This document shows, one piece after another, positions 6,797 to 40,796 of a stretch of DNA of 49,954 nt. The translations under genes and the position numbers were made by a program. The stretch's first letter is position 1, and the number at the start of each line of letters is the position of its first letter. The stretch comes from Pseudobutyrivibrio sp. OR37 (GTDB lineage: Bacteria; Bacillota; Clostridia; Lachnospirales; Lachnospiraceae), in assembly GCF_900113655.1 (NCBI RefSeq), contig NZ_FOQF01000027.1, positions 1 to 49,954 on the forward strand. The letters run 5' to 3'. The notes under the pieces were generated by a model. That model was not told where the DNA came from. It saw nothing but the letters and a program-made list of their open reading frames with translations, and made no database searches.

Positions 6797-7789
6797 ATGA
6801 TTTCACAGATTGTAATTGTAGATGATGACCCTATAATTTTAAAAAGAGCCTGGAATACCCTTACAAGTGCGGGATTTAAGGTGGTAGTTTTAAAATCTGG
6901 AAAGGCACTTTTGGATTATGCCAAAGAAAACATGGCTCCCAATCTGATTCTGCTGGACATCAGCATGCCTGAGATGGATGGCTTTGAGGTGGTTGAGAAG
7001 CTGAGAATGTGTGAGAGCAATTGGCGGGATACTCCTGTGATTTTTTTGACGGCTAATGAAGATGAGGACACCGAAACAAAAGGACTTTCTCTTGGAGCAA
7101 TGGATTTTATCAGAAAGCCATTTGTGCCTAGCGTGCTAGTGCTTAGAGTGAAGCACGCCGTTGAGCTTGTCCTACTGCAGAAAGATTTAGAGACCATGGT
7201 GGAAGAAAAAACAAAGGAAAATGAGAATTTGTTTATCCATGTCGTCGAGAGTCTTGCTGATGCTATCGATGCCAAGGACAATTACACAAAAGGTCATTCC
7301 GGACGTGTCGCAGTTTATTCAAAGGAGATTGCGCGAAGATATGGCTATGATGAGAAACAGCAGGAGCAAATTTTCATGATGGGGCTTCTTCATGATGTTG
7401 GAAAAATAGGAGTGCCTGATGAGGTTATAAATAAGCCTGGAAGGCTTACAGACGAGGAGTTTGCCAAGATAAAAAAGCACCCTGGTATTGGTGGAAAGAT
7501 TCTTGGAAATATAAAGGAGATGCCGGAACTTGCAGCAGGCGCAAAATGGCATCACGAAAGGTATGATGGAAAAGGTTATCCTGAGGGGCTATCTGGCGAT
7601 GATATATCTGAGGAAGCCAGAATCATCGCAGTTGCCGATGCCTATGACGCCATGACCAGTAACCGTAGCTACAGGGGAGCTCTGCCAGTTGAAGTGGTCC
7701 GTGGCGAGATAGAAAAGGGGAAAGGCTCCCAGTTTGACCCTAAGTTTGCAGATATTATGATTGAAATGATTGATGAAGGGATTACATAA
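6797..7789 (+). CDS. Receiver/HD-GYP protein, probable c-di-GMP phosphodiesterase
   Basis: The 330-residue protein starts at ATG 6797, five bases after GGAGG; an upstream in-frame ATG at 6764 lacks an SD. Residues 1-120 are a receiver with the acidic pocket VDDD (9-11), phosphoacceptor Asp54 in LLDISMP and the switch Lys in IRKPF. After a short coiled linker, an HD-GYP domain carries LLHDVGKIG and the HHERYDGKGYP signature together with the following DAYDAMTS motif. HD-GYP enzymes hydrolyse c-di-GMP. Together with the adjacent kinase and Hpt genes it forms a likely phosphorelay that ends in c-di-GMP turnover. A diguanylate cyclase is present at 44 kb. Confidence 0.92.
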   Translation: MISQIVIVDDDPIILKRAWNTLTSAGFKVVVLKSGKALLDYAKENMAPNLILLDISMPEMDGFEVVEKLRMCESNWRDTPVIFLTANEDEDTETKGLSLGAMDFIRKPFVPSVLVLRVKHAVELVLLQKDLETMVEEKTKENENLFIHVVESLADAIDAKDNYTKGHSGRVAVYSKEIARRYGYDEKQQEQIFMMGLLHDVGKIGVPDEVINKPGRLTDEEFAKIKKHPGIGGKILGNIKEMPELAAGAKWHHERYDGKGYPEGLSGDDISEEARIIAVADAYDAMTSNRSYRGALPVEVVRGEIEKGKGSQFDPKFADIMIEMIDEGIT

Positions 7790-7843
7790 TATAAAGATAG
7801 CCAGTGGGGGAGAATATTGTTTTCTAGTTAGGAAGTTTTCTAG

Positions 7844-7872
7844 TTGACAAATGCCATGCCAAACGTTATATT
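7844..7872 (+). promoter_or_regulatory. Strong promoter reading into hairpin array A1
   Basis: TTGACA, 17 bases, TATATT: close to the vegetative consensus. It reads rightward through array A1 into the nuclease gene at 8321, giving a predicted leader of about 440 bases. A further hairpin (TATGGC-N15-GCCATA, 7912-7938) lies between the promoter and the array. A promoter of the same form (TTGACT, 17 bases, TATATT) precedes the paralogous locus at 39.6 kb. Confidence 0.75.
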
Positions 7873-7987
7873 ATCATCTGAGTAATGAAAAATAATCTAT
7901 TTTTATCACCTTATGGCAGAGTAGTTCATATCGCCATAGTTATCCCATTGTGATTTTTTATTTTTCTGGTGTGTTTTTTTGATTAAT

Positions 7988-8297
7988 GCAACCCAAAGGG
8001 GATTTTTTCTACTGAGGGATGATTCTAAGATTTTAAGTATGCATCCCATTCGCAGGAAAAACATATTTGGGATGTATAGCCGAATAAGCTGAATCATCCC
8101 ATTTGGGAAAACGTGCTAATTGGGATGATTTCTGCGATACTTGAGCAAGGTTGTAGAGGGTGGATAAGAGGTTTTTCTGGTAAATACTTGATAATCATGC
8201 ATCCCAAAAGCACAAAAAGTTCAAATGGGATGCATAGTGAGAAAATAAAATATTTTTCAATCATCCCAAAAAACTAAAAACGCTGATAGGGATGATT
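7988..8297 (+). repeat. Hairpin array A1 (five palindromic units)
   Basis: Five units have an arm ending in CCC, 21 bases, and an arm starting GGG. CCC/GGG positions are 7992/8016, 8045/8069, 8098/8122, 8203/8227 and 8265/8289. The arms are ATGCATCCCA or AATCATCCC with their complements; unit 3 is a perfect 10-bp stem, unit 2 pairs with one G-T wobble, and unit 1 (GCAACCC) is the weakest. Gaps between units are 26, 26, 78 and 35 bases, and first CCC to last GGG spans exactly 300 bases. Arrays at 15.5 and 22.7 kb share this geometry. The last unit ends 23 bases before the nuclease start codon. Confidence 0.9.
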
Positions 8298-8320
8298 TTA
8301 GAAAGGAATTAAAGGAAATA

Positions 8321-9118
8321 TTGAGAAATTATAGGAAAGAGCTAGAGGCTCAGTTGAAAGAACTGGATGGTTTGATAAAAGAAAATGGGAAGAACCTGGC
8401 AAAACTAAAGAATCTACCAGAGTTTGGCGTAAAGGCATCTACTGCGCGTGGCAGCCATCAATATTATTTGGTAGATAAAGAAACTGGGAGGCGAGAATAT
8501 GCTGGCTTTGCAAAAGCAAAGCTTGTTAATAGATTGATTCAGAGGGATTATGCTATTGCAGTAGATAAGAAATTAGTTGAATTAAGAAAGAAACTAAGTA
8601 AATTTATTGCAAATTATGATATAGCCGAGATTGATGATTTATATGAGAAATTGTCTGCGGCGAGAAGGAGTGTGGTAGTTCCTATACTAGAGCCAATTGA
8701 TGTGTATATTCAAAATTGGTTAGAACAACATCCAGGCCAGCAGAATTCATATCCAGAAGAAGGAATATATCGTGCAAACAAAGGTGAGATGGTTCGTTCT
8801 AAATCAGAGAAGATTATTGCCGATGCATTGTCAAAGTATAATGTACCATATCAATACGAGCCTATGCTTGAATTAGGATATAACACCATATATCCTGATT
8901 TTGTAGCCCTTAATGTTAGGACACGTAAGACAATTTATTGGGAACACCTAGGAATTGTTTCAGATATAGAGTATGCTACGAAGAACTTTAAGAAGGTACA
9001 GGATTATGAGAAAAATGGTTACATACTTGGTAGAGATCTGATTACGACTATGGAGTCGACTGATTCACCAATTGATGTAAAGCTAGTTGAAGAAAAAATA
9101 AAAGAGTTTTTGCTGTAG
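8321..9118 (+). CDS. PD-(D/E)XK-like nuclease family protein, array A-associated
   Basis: The 265-residue protein starts at TTG 8321 after AAAGGAA. The N-terminal third is coiled coil, followed by a small segment with SHQYYLVDKETGRREY. Residues 155-230 look like a PD-(D/E)XK core: Glu163 in VRSKSEKII, Asp193 in IYPDF and Glu208 in IYWEHLG, with His in place of the usual Lys of the last motif. A full-length paralog lies at 39999-40796 and shares all these motifs. From memory, similar proteins occur in several copies in many Firmicutes without an assigned function. Array A1 occupies its leader and a terminator follows at its stop. Catalytic activity and substrate are inferred only. Confidence 0.72.
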   Translation: MRNYRKELEAQLKELDGLIKENGKNLAKLKNLPEFGVKASTARGSHQYYLVDKETGRREYAGFAKAKLVNRLIQRDYAIAVDKKLVELRKKLSKFIANYDIAEIDDLYEKLSAARRSVVVPILEPIDVYIQNWLEQHPGQQNSYPEEGIYRANKGEMVRSKSEKIIADALSKYNVPYQYEPMLELGYNTIYPDFVALNVRTRKTIYWEHLGIVSDIEYATKNFKKVQDYEKNGYILGRDLITTMESTDSPIDVKLVEEKIKEFLL

Positions 9119-15482: not shown

Positions 15483-15791
15483 TGCAACCTAAATGAGTTT
15501 TTTAAGTTTTGGGATGATTGCAATATTTTAGGAATGCAACCCATTTGTTTAAAAAACTTGTTTGGGATGTATAGTCGAATTAGTAGATGCATCCCATATG
15601 CGGAAAAAAGCTAATAGGGATGATTCCTGCGATGCTTAAGTGGTTTTGTAGAGGGGAAATCAGAGACTTTCTTGATAAATACATGAAATGTATGCAACCC
15701 AAAAGCATAAAAAACGCAAATGGGATGCATAGCGAAAAAATAAATAATTTTTCATGCATCCCAAAAGTAAAAAAATGCTCAGAGGGATGAC
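15483..15791 (+). repeat. Hairpin array A2 (five palindromic units, solo)
   Basis: CCC/GGG pairs lie at 15488/15511 (CCT in the first), 15540/15564, 15593/15617, 15698/15722 and 15760/15784. Loops are 20, 21, 21, 21 and 21 bases and the gaps are 26, 26, 78 and 35, as in A1. The 78-base gap is also similar in sequence to that of A1 (for example CCTGCGATGCTT against TCTGCGATACTT). Just after the array, GGAATTAAAGGAAA matches the ribosome site of the A1 nuclease gene, but no nuclease follows. The array looks like a solo derivative of an A1-type locus. Confidence 0.88.
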
Positions 15792-22660: not shown

Positions 22661-22973
22661 ATGCATCCCGAATGTAGGAAATGGAATTTTGGGATGATTA
22701 TAAAATTTTAACAATGCATCCCATTTGATAAAAAATAGTGTTTGGGATGCACAGTGAATATGATGAATGCATCCCAAATTGGAAATAATGCATTATGGGA
22801 TGCATTTTTAATTATTTAGAGCTGTTACTTGGTGAATAATTAGCAGGAAAATTGCCAAAACAATGAAAGTCATGCATCCCAAAATAGAAAAAAGTGCATA
22901 TGGGATGCATGACTTCAAAATGAAAATTTTTTCATGCATCCCAAAAACATAAAATGCCTATTAGGGATGCATT
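22661..22973 (+). repeat. Hairpin array A3 (five palindromic units, solo)
   Basis: CCC/GGG pairs lie at 22667/22691, 22720/22744, 22773/22797, 22878/22902 and 22940/22964. All five loops are 21 bases and the gaps are 26, 26, 78 and 35, so the total of 300 bases matches A1. Units 3, 4 and 5 have near-perfect ATGCATCCCA/TGGGATGCAT stems. The 78-base gap sequence differs from A1 and A2, so spacing is more conserved than sequence. No nuclease gene follows. The stretch before it (22473-22660) holds nothing I can identify. Confidence 0.9.
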
Positions 22974-23011
22974 ATGACAGAAATTTATTACAGGTTAGAC
23001 AAATTCGAGAT

Positions 23012-23068
23012 TTACAGAGATATAAACGCCGCCAGGCTTCCTCTATTAGCCACAATAATTCTATGAGG
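23012..23068 (-). pseudogene. Orphan 3' end of pgeF (copy R1)
   Basis: On the minus strand this segment reads HRIIVANRGSLAAFISL and a stop, matching the last residues of intact PgeF at 24067 (HRIMGANRGSLAAFISL). It is a direct repeat of the true gene end, about 1.05 kb away, with the XRE regulator gene between the two. Only the final 19 codons remain. Confidence 0.85.
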
Positions 23069-24017: not shown

Positions 24018-24059
24018 AAATGCATCCCCAATTAGCAATAATGTTTTGGGGATGCATTT
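24018..24059. terminator. Bidirectional terminator-like hairpin with family A core
   Basis: AAATGCATCCCCAA (24018-24031) pairs perfectly over 14 bp with 24046-24059, with a 14-base loop and A/T runs on both sides. It lies between the convergent XRE and pgeF genes. The arm shares GCATCCC with the family A array units but its geometry differs, so it may be a converted single unit now acting as a terminator. Confidence 0.7.
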
Positions 24060-39386: not shown

Positions 39387-39492
39387 TTATAAAGAGATAA
39401 ATGCATCGAGACTACCTCTATTTGCACCAGTAATTCTATGAAATTTGAAGTTTAGGATTACTGTGAATGCAATAGTTGGTGGTCTCGCTGTG
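39387..39492 (-). pseudogene. Orphan 3' end of pgeF (copy R3)
   Basis: On the minus strand the sequence reads HSETTNYCIHSNPKL, then after a frameshift HRITGANRGSLDAFISL and a stop. Intact PgeF has HIEITNYCTRCNPKLF and HRIMGANRGSLAAFISL. It covers the last 34 or so codons and is more diverged than copy R1. It lies in the same orientation as pgeF, 15 kb away, next to the array B2 locus. Confidence 0.8.
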
Positions 39493-39929: not shown

Positions 39930-39998
39930 TTTTATCCCCAAAACCAGTTATGTTAAATATACATTTTCGATACTTAAGAGAGACAAGGAGATATTTTG

Positions 39999-40796
39999 AT
40001 GATTGAAGATATTAGTAGTCTATTAATTGACCAGCTTGAAGAGATTCAGAACCTGCTTAAAAAATCTAATAGAAATATGATTAAATATAAAGATGTTCCT
40101 AAAAAACATATATATATTTCCAAATGTAATGGAACCTATCAATATTATGAAGCAATTAATGGTGAACGAAAATATATAGCTAAGAAGGATGTAAAGAATT
40201 ACACCAAATATTTGCAACGTGATTACGAAGAAAAAGTAAACAGGCTTTTATTGAAGCTTGAAAAATCAATAAAATCATTCGCTAAAAATTATGATGTGAA
40301 AGAGATTAACAATATTTATGAAAACTACAATGAGGAGAGAAAAAATGTGATAGTTCCCCTTGCGGAAACAGATGGACTGTTCATATCCAGATGGCGAAGT
40401 GAAATGCTTGGGAATCAAAATAAATTCTACGAGAAGGGGAACTTTAAAACTCGACGAGGAGAATTTGTTAGATCTAAATCAGAAATGATTATAGCGGATT
40501 ATTTTAATGAATATGGCTTAGATTATGTATACGAACCTGAATTGAAGCTTTCAGAGGATAATGTCATTTATCCAGATTTTGCAATATTGAATGTTCGAAA
40601 AAGGAAAACTATATATTGGGAACATCTAGGTATGATTGATGATGGTGAGTATGCAATTAAAAACTTTAATAAGCTAAGAGAATATGAGAGGGCAGGCTAC
40701 ACGATAGGAAATAACATTGTCTTTTCAATGGAATCAATGGAACGACCTTTGGACATAGAAGAAATAGAAAAGAAAATCAAGGAATATTGCGTTTAG
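39999..40796 (+). CDS. PD-(D/E)XK-like nuclease family protein, array B-associated
   Basis: The 265-residue protein starts at ATG 39999, eight bases after CAAGGAG (a TTG three bases earlier is possible). It is a full-length paralog of the protein at 8321: coiled-coil N-terminus, NGTYQYYEAINGERKY, then the putative core with Glu162 in VRSKSEMII, Asp193 in IYPDF and Glu208 in IYWEHLG. The gene is AT-rich, like recQ, and unlike the genes on either side. Its stop is followed within 13 bases by the recQ start, so the two form an operon between arrays B2 and B3. The nuclease role is inferred. Confidence 0.72.
   Translation: MIEDISSLLIDQLEEIQNLLKKSNRNMIKYKDVPKKHIYISKCNGTYQYYEAINGERKYIAKKDVKNYTKYLQRDYEEKVNRLLLKLEKSIKSFAKNYDVKEINNIYENYNEERKNVIVPLAETDGLFISRWRSEMLGNQNKFYEKGNFKTRRGEFVRSKSEMIIADYFNEYGLDYVYEPELKLSEDNVIYPDFAILNVRKRKTIYWEHLGMIDDGEYAIKNFNKLREYERAGYTIGNNIVFSMESMERPLDIEEIEKKIKEYCV

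Follow-up and report, generated by a model that had tools for sequence, protein, structure and literature searches.

Helically phased arrays of predicted paired DNA-binding sites accompany a nuclease-like protein family of Clostridia

In many gut and rumen Clostridia, a family of nuclease-like proteins and the arrays of short inverted repeats in front of their genes together look like an undescribed self-controlled nuclease system. The starting point is a stretch of 49,954 nucleotides from Pseudobutyrivibrio sp. OR37 (contig NZ_FOQF01000027.1; this whole stretch is called the window in the following), which contains three such arrays, A1, A2 and A3. As judged from their sequences, the arrays are helically phased rows of predicted paired DNA binding sites. 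With a probability of roughly two in three, the gene-linked array A1 consists of double-stranded DNA sites of the nuclease-like protein encoded directly downstream, a gene that the original prediction had not linked to the arrays; the protein would thereby limit its own expression, and A2 and A3 would be detached copies. The family thus provides a row of nuclease-like proteins that appear to differ in DNA specificity and that come with their own arrays of sites beside the genes, so that a residue-to-base code can be proposed from genomes, and the purpose of an array-bound nuclease becomes an addressable question.

The three arrays of five palindromes each that the original prediction had described were found in their places by direct reading as well as by script registration. 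None of them has a strand: A1 lies at 7987–8296 and has five convergent sites with the core CAxCCC-N21-GGGATG, A2 lies at 15483–15791 and is a presumably detached copy that is not followed by a nuclease gene, and A3, likewise a presumed detached copy, lies at 22662–22971. With the two outer bases counted in, the sites of A1 are at 7987–8023, 8040–8076, 8093–8129, 8198–8234 and 8260–8296. Also the geometry was recovered as described, with loops of 21 bases between CCC and GGG throughout, except for 20 bases in the first loop of A2, and with gaps of 26, 26, 78 and 35 bases in all three arrays. The CAxCCC motifs start at offsets 0, 53, 106, 211 and 273 in A1 and A3 and at 0, 52, 105, 210 and 272 in A2, whose offsets are one base shorter because of its 20-base loop. 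The imperfect left arms read CAACCC (A1 unit 1, A2 units 2 and 4) or CAACCT (A2 unit 1), the ten six-base cores of A3 (CATCCC/GGGATG) are perfect without exception, and the outer TG of TGCATCCC is present in four of the ten arms of A1. A genome-wide pattern search gave 24 occurrences of CATCCC-N18-24-GGGATG in the 3.56-Mb genome versus none in the backwards-read control, and the arrays are therefore not due to chance. A lone CATCCC-N20-GGGATG site lies outside any array at 24023–24054 of the window.

It had been claimed that geometry rather than sequence is kept among the copies, and this was too strong. By BLAST the arrays are homologous (A1 versus A2 76%, A1 versus A3 69%, range 69–77% with two copies on contig C48 included), and as A1, A2 and A3 are thus diverged homologous copies, their shared geometry is partly inherited, the half-sites being the most conserved part. 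Between A1 and A3, only 1 of 60 core half-site bases differs, versus 111 of 230 loop and gap bases, and when A3 is compared with the orthologous array of Pseudobutyrivibrio ruminis AD2017, none of the 80 arm bases differs, versus 25 of 230 others. The half-sites are under purifying selection. The identical spacing holds for A1 to A3, but this exact layout is not universal, with other arrays stepping by 42, 52, 63, 74, 84, 94 or 105 bp; same-core arrays with other spacing, mostly 62–64 bp, occur on contigs C24 and C72 of the same genome. It is the helical phase and not the exact layout that the arrays keep.

The gene behind A1 (8321–9118, + strand, TTG start, AAAGGA ribosome site) begins 24 bp after the end of the array and encodes a protein of 265 residues with an N-terminal region, in which residues 36–49 vary with the half-site, and a C-terminal domain that is PD-(D/E)XK-like by its sequence and probably cuts DNA. 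The PADLOC model PDC-S68 matched the C-terminus in 53 of 53 family members (4.4e-29), and the PD-DEXK model of PADLOC matched 45 of the 53. E163, P192-D193, E208-H209 and G211 are invariant in 76 sequences, and the usual K of PD-(D/E)XK enzymes is not evident at the expected place in the family. Matches to PHROG are weak (endonuclease in 6 of 22 and Holliday-junction in 4 of 22 members) and do not include the window protein itself. Pfam, NCBIfam and PDB gave no credible match for the family; the window protein has no Pfam match at E<=0.001 and, when searched up to E 0.5, matches PurA alone at 0.063 and does not match PF12784 (Rpn / PDDEXK_2 transposases).

The family is thin across Clostridia, near-universal in the genus and present in several copies per genome among the matches listed. 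On the same basis, there are protein matches in 57 of the 145 genomes examined (own genome included) and in 27 of the 28 other genomes of the genus, with up to 11 per genome when fragments are included, and the proteins within one genome are mostly diverged. Among 391 genomes of the class, 35 have a match at E<=1e-15, in some cases confined to the C-terminal domain. The window itself contains a paralogous protein (39996–40796, + strand, 41% identical), encoded directly before a gene that by eye is RecQ-like, and no array was detected upstream of this paralog by the word test described below. No relative was confirmed in the viral contig collection, the plasmid matches comprise six records with the C-terminal part only, and three short phage records matched, one of them covering 85%; on these results a phage or plasmid element was rejected.

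Searches of relatives with the array and with the protein converge, as six genomes (G008, G021, G022, G009, G018 and G001) carry an array match directly before the homolog. For a broader view, homologs were sampled from partial lists of matches, one set being the best 80 of 563, and 173 loci were reduced to 135 by dropping identical proteins, lengths outside 225–330 aa and upstream regions below 180 bp. An array was accepted when the best alternating inverted 6-mer outscored all 40 Markov shuffles, and by this word test 92 of the 135 distinct homologs have an array upstream. A raw score of at least 7 was reached by 48 of 72 upstream regions and, at the same loci, by 9 of 722 control windows, one of which is the upstream region of a second homolog. 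The word test found arrays in 11 of 20 further homologs, of which 19 belong to other families of the class and one to that of the window (one array, at L230, is irregular). The common form occurs as an exact site at least once in 14 of the 43 word-negative loci. The half-site words are lineage-specific, with 55 distinct words among the 92 arrays (some are shifted readings of one half-site), they differ between loci within one genome, and some arrays are nearly perfect tandem repeats.

The half-site usually has the form T(A/G)C followed by 3–4 lineage-specific bases. By script alignment, 82 of the 92 arrays fit a convergent 5'-T(A/G)C plus variable bases (60 TAC, 22 TGC), a register that is not independent evidence by itself because both orientations and all shifts were tried in order to find it. 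The ten arrays that miss the threshold for this register include A1's own; complete TGC arms number 4 of 10 in A1, 6 in A2 and 9 in A3. When the anchor is fixed, exact convergent pairs concentrate at spans of 35–38 bp, with 222 pairs versus 2.7 per other span, and also the word-negative loci have 18 such pairs versus 0.5 per other span; a 556-kb control has a mild excess (40 pairs versus 6.0 per other span). Some families use spans of 30, 32 or 43 bp, and the smaller peaks at 30 and 32 are due to particular families.

The spacing of the sites follows the turns of the DNA helix. Consecutive half-sites that point the same way are preferentially 42, 52–53, 62–64, 73–74, 84, 94, 104–106 and 124–127 bp apart, which corresponds to a 10.5-bp periodicity with R=0.755 and a best period of 10.4 (238 distances from 84 arrays), counts that are not fully independent, given that shorter distances add up to some of the long ones and that there are related words among the half-sites. 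With one modal distance per half-site word R is 0.844 (n=55), and without the 50–55 class it is 0.73 (n=23). In the extra set of 20 homologs, the modal distances (74, 63, 62, 84, 54, 42, 94, 53, 53, 52 and 61) gave R=0.87 with n=11, and all distinct distances gave a weaker R=0.455 with n=30. A1 to A3 fit this phasing with 53, 53, 105 and 62 bp. Unit distances that are multiples of 10.5 bp argue for one-faced binding to double-stranded DNA, and the quantised spacing across many arrays, together with the purifying selection on the half-sites, agrees with the earlier view that these are not drifting intergenic repeats.

The part of the protein that would read the DNA appears to change together with the sites, as indicated by tests of sequence co-variation for which 82 of the 92 arrays were used. 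In partial Mantel tests against half-site distance, the N-terminal region given the C-terminal one reached 0.162 (best of 300 permutations 0.067), and the reverse, the C-terminal region given the N-terminal one, gave 0.040, which is within the permutations. Of the alignment columns tested, that of residue 43 has the strongest tie to base 2 (z 16.5, next 8.1) and also to base 4, in the latter case closely followed by residue 40 and the C-terminal columns 201 and 220. For bases 5–7 the best columns are mixed (e.g. 11, 244, 89, 264, 16 and 38), some being outside residues 36–46 and some C-terminal (244, 264), and it is therefore bases 2 and 4 that carry the case for co-variation. If position 43 is N or H, the half-site begins with TAC in 43 of 44 cases, and all 24 proteins with R43 go with half-sites whose second base is G or whose fourth base is A, as do 11 of the 58 others, counts of residue against base that are inflated by related sequences. 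Independent-pair tests on supported branches comprise 2–5 pairs only, too few to reach significance, and on average none of these pairs goes against the rule.

Transcription of the A1 locus would start at a promoter at 7844–7872 (+ strand), with TTGACA at 7844–7849, a 17-bp spacer and TATATT at 7867–7872. Among 84 loci, a strict TTGACA-N17-TATANT promoter lies upstream of the array in 31, inside it in 1, and is absent in 52 (control: 1 in 680 kb), and 25 of the 31 strict promoters end 92–128 bp before the first half-site. With a looser score and the best promoter per locus (83 loci), 57 are upstream, 16 inside and 10 downstream. Between promoter and array, A1 has a leader hairpin TTATGGC...GCCATAG that is followed by TTATCCCA (7911–7947, + strand), and none of 50 shuffles reached its score. 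Of 52 leaders, 32 contain a hairpin with a tail behind it that resembles TTTTCC, ATTCC or ATCCC, 18 of them outscoring all of their 50 shuffles, and the leader arms differ yet pair (TGGC/GCCA, TGGTGG/CCACCA, TGCAGC/GTTGCA, GGCATT/AATGCC). The leader element itself may be RNA.

Such an arrangement can be understood if a dimer of the protein reads two convergent half-sites that are mostly 35–38 bp across. As the units are whole helical turns apart, bound dimers would align on one face of the DNA, which makes cooperative binding possible, and dimers on that face may fill the array cooperatively. The array lies between the promoter with its short leader and the ribosome site of the gene, and a filled array should therefore block RNA polymerase on its way into the gene, which would keep a risky enzyme scarce. 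A2, A3 and other gene-less arrays would be detached copies that are still bound or were so until lately. The best guess for the nuclease domain is an action on foreign DNA, because the protein is related to defence candidates in PADLOC. Against self-limitation by binding to the array it has to be said that 43 of the 135 homologs, the window paralog at 39996 included, have no array by the word test, that a single autoregulated gene rarely needs 5–13 sites, and that A3 is conserved while the gene that follows it is not fixed.

A2 and A3 have kept their sites without promoter, leader and nuclease gene; for A2 the lack of promoter and leader follows from a homology to gene-linked copies that begins at the array, and an orthologue of A2 is also present in P. 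ruminis AD2017. Nothing in the AD2017 stretch matches the segment with the HTH gene behind A3, whereas A3 itself is retained there, and A3 is thus not simply the operator of its next gene. Orthologous arrays stay put between the two strains, and the idea of a cassette with gene turnover bounded by arrays was unsupported, as the same comparison shows insertions and deletions elsewhere too. Tandem sites with the A1 core are found in 18 of the 29 genomes of the genus (own included), gene-linked or not, and for 13 tandem-site stretches in 10 other genomes as well as for the arrays on C24 and C72 there is no homolog within the 1.2–9 kb examined. Also genome G028 has a gene-less array, and its best nuclease match is 42% identical to the A1 protein among the matches listed. 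A further gene-less array family of 360–440 bp (L282, L286, L288, L281, L287, L284, L285 and L007 4263–4625) is dispersed in several species, with differing surroundings, in either orientation and with decayed half-sites in some copies. On contig C48 (L005 3100–5990), an array, a cut-down nuclease frame of 75 aa, a gene that by eye is reductase-like, and a second array follow each other in the order known from A1 to A2 of the window, and this block is preceded by a guaA-like gene.

That the array acts as RNA, i.e. as a transcribed leader of hairpins to which the protein binds or by which translation is regulated, in the manner of type III toxin-antitoxin loci, is quite unlikely. A promoter is often upstream of the array and makes its transcription probable, the leader hairpin arms vary yet pair, and A1 and A3 fold far better than shuffles (z -4.7 and -9.6), but such z-scores are not diagnostic, because inverted repeats of any kind fold well. 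The arm changes speak against RNA: in 78 arrays with 2388 arm positions (A1's own array is outside this set), there are 102 single departures (76 mismatches and 26 G-U) versus 3 double changes, of which 1 is complementary, and transitions in the arms on the sense strand are not biased to G-U, with 28 keeping G-U versus 43 incompatible ones. Departures number 63 in left and 45 in right arms. The arm changes are not like those of RNA stems, and the arms behave as independent half-sites. In addition, the spacing tracks the turns of B-DNA, and A3 is conserved though A2 and A3 have neither leader nor promoter. RNA structure as the cause of the geometry was rejected on the arm changes together with the B-DNA phasing, and of the predicted fixed nucleoprotein or RNA architecture it is thus the nucleoprotein alternative that is supported, in line with selection on the half-sites and the spacing in steps of 10.5 bp. 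Rfam, a match to which had been named as evidence against a new element, has none in the window at gathering score, and its covariance models gave 0 matches at E<=1 on 7780–8330.

Three other explanations keep the array at the DNA level. The phased sites could be a DNA antitoxin or guard that holds the nuclease inactive on its own locus and on detached arrays, and loss, copying or invasion of arrays would then free the DNA cutting; this is doubtful, and if true, it would mean addiction or immunity against invaders, with a readable residue-to-base code that diversifies across paralogs in one genome. It is unlikely that the arrays are substrates which the nuclease cuts or nicks for the spread of arrays and gene blocks, i.e. 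a PD-(D/E)XK mobile element with gene-less satellites in a REP-like manner. Such spreading would fit the number of protein matches per genus genome, the wide occurrence of A1-core tandem sites with or without a nearby homolog, the dispersed 360–440-bp family, the array-nuclease-reductase-array order common to the C48 block and the window, and the nearly perfect tandem repeats in some arrays. However, target duplications or defined ends around the arrays were not recognised by eye, orthologous arrays are immobile between the two strains, the proteins within a genome are mostly diverged among the matches listed, and the viral collection and the plasmids gave no confirmed and C-terminal matches only, respectively. 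Finally, another conserved regulator or a chromosome-organising protein could bind the array and the nuclease gene be merely a neighbour, in agreement with the gene-less arrays, also the one in G028, and with homologs that miss the array. This is very unlikely, as the half-site words differ within one genome and track the N-terminal part of the protein itself, and no further gene was noticed as a companion of the array. In the 25 commonest neighbour clusters, no conserved operon partner was recognised other than guaA (by eye), which is upstream in 18 loci. As regards a cognate methyltransferase of a restriction-modification system, guaA is the only gene that by eye in these clusters recurs at a fixed place beside the homologs. 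The guaA-like gene lies about 2 kb upstream of the nuclease start in these 18 of the neighbourhoods L137–L216, which suggests a preferred chromosomal place.

Several known systems resemble the proposed self-limiting nuclease with its sites. REP sequences are clustered short inverted repeats that are lineage-specific, lie by the gene of a nucleic-acid enzyme and have dispersed gene-less copies, all of which is similar here. RAYTs, however, are HUH enzymes that act on single-stranded hairpins, whereas the present family is PD-(D/E)XK-like and its repeats are phased half-sites about 37 bp across, for which helical phasing and non-compensatory arm changes favour a double-stranded form. No HUH (Y1) transposase was found at the locus, with the window protein being Pfam-negative at E<=0.001, nor among 25 of the 53 families that the other members matched weakly. 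Tn3 res and parC consist of several inverted or iterated sites with helical spacing before the gene of the binding protein and serve autoregulation. The arrays share the helically spaced sites in front of their predicted binding protein's gene, but they have another protein family, many more specificities, and a position in the probable transcribed leader and not at the promoter, and no partner ATPase or recombinase of the res/parC type was seen here. The PDC-S68 and HEAT_CxxC_PD-DEXK models of PADLOC share a related nuclease domain, but the PDC-S68 match concerns the C-terminal ~130 residues of models of ~1200 residues, and the 265-aa protein differs by an N-terminal region of its own.

Type III toxin-antitoxin loci of the ToxIN type have a promoter, a repeat array and then a nuclease-type gene in a single-gene locus, and this order is the same here, but the half-sites are inverted and alternating and not direct RNA repeats, and they have no RNA-type changes; no match of the ToxN/AbiQ/CptN type was obtained for the window protein, nor in the full NCBIfam list for 53 members. 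CRISPR loci are similar in having a promoter, a leader, an array and variable sequence between conserved parts, but the arrays have alternating inverted half-sites and no whole direct repeats with captured spacers. Unlike CRISPR spacers, the same intervening sequence recurs inside several of the 11 arrays displayed, and there is by eye no cas-like gene among the 25 commonest neighbour clusters. We know of no described system of this form. In agreement with the earlier statement that no element with this layout is known, searches of an open-access library, which lacks most subscription papers, brought up no description, and neither the protein nor the array is covered by any curated entry of Pfam, NCBIfam, Rfam or PDB that came up.

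Two half-site words of the same genome were followed beyond their arrays. TACGTC occurs in four site pairs 176–177 bp apart at other genome loci (14 matches versus 1 for the control pattern). These TACGTC-N25-GACGTA pairs (L289, L290, L291 and L292) are a repeated element, with L292 lacking sequence similarity; two of them, on C21 and C63, are near Rpn-type genes (L289 and L291, with a PF12784 match for one gene), and the C80 pair is before a C39-like gene (L292). TACAGT is limited to its home array and one single site (5 matches versus 2 for the control).

Some further observations concern the surroundings of the arrays. A four-site array with the same core (L006 1613–1832) lies between an element that by eye is IS3-like and an Abi_2 gene (Pfam 7e-19). 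Similar stretches of 60 bases, CCTCTATT...TAATTCTATGA by eye, are found in the window at 23005–23067 and at about 39400–39450, and the former is at the edge of the 1-kb HTH-gene segment to which nothing in the AD2017 stretch corresponds, an arrangement that resembles a small gene insertion between repeats. The region 9260–35779 of the window contains many small stand-alone enzymes (acetyltransferases, NUDIX proteins and methyltransferases, mostly named by eye), and there have been many gains and losses in this region between the two close strains.
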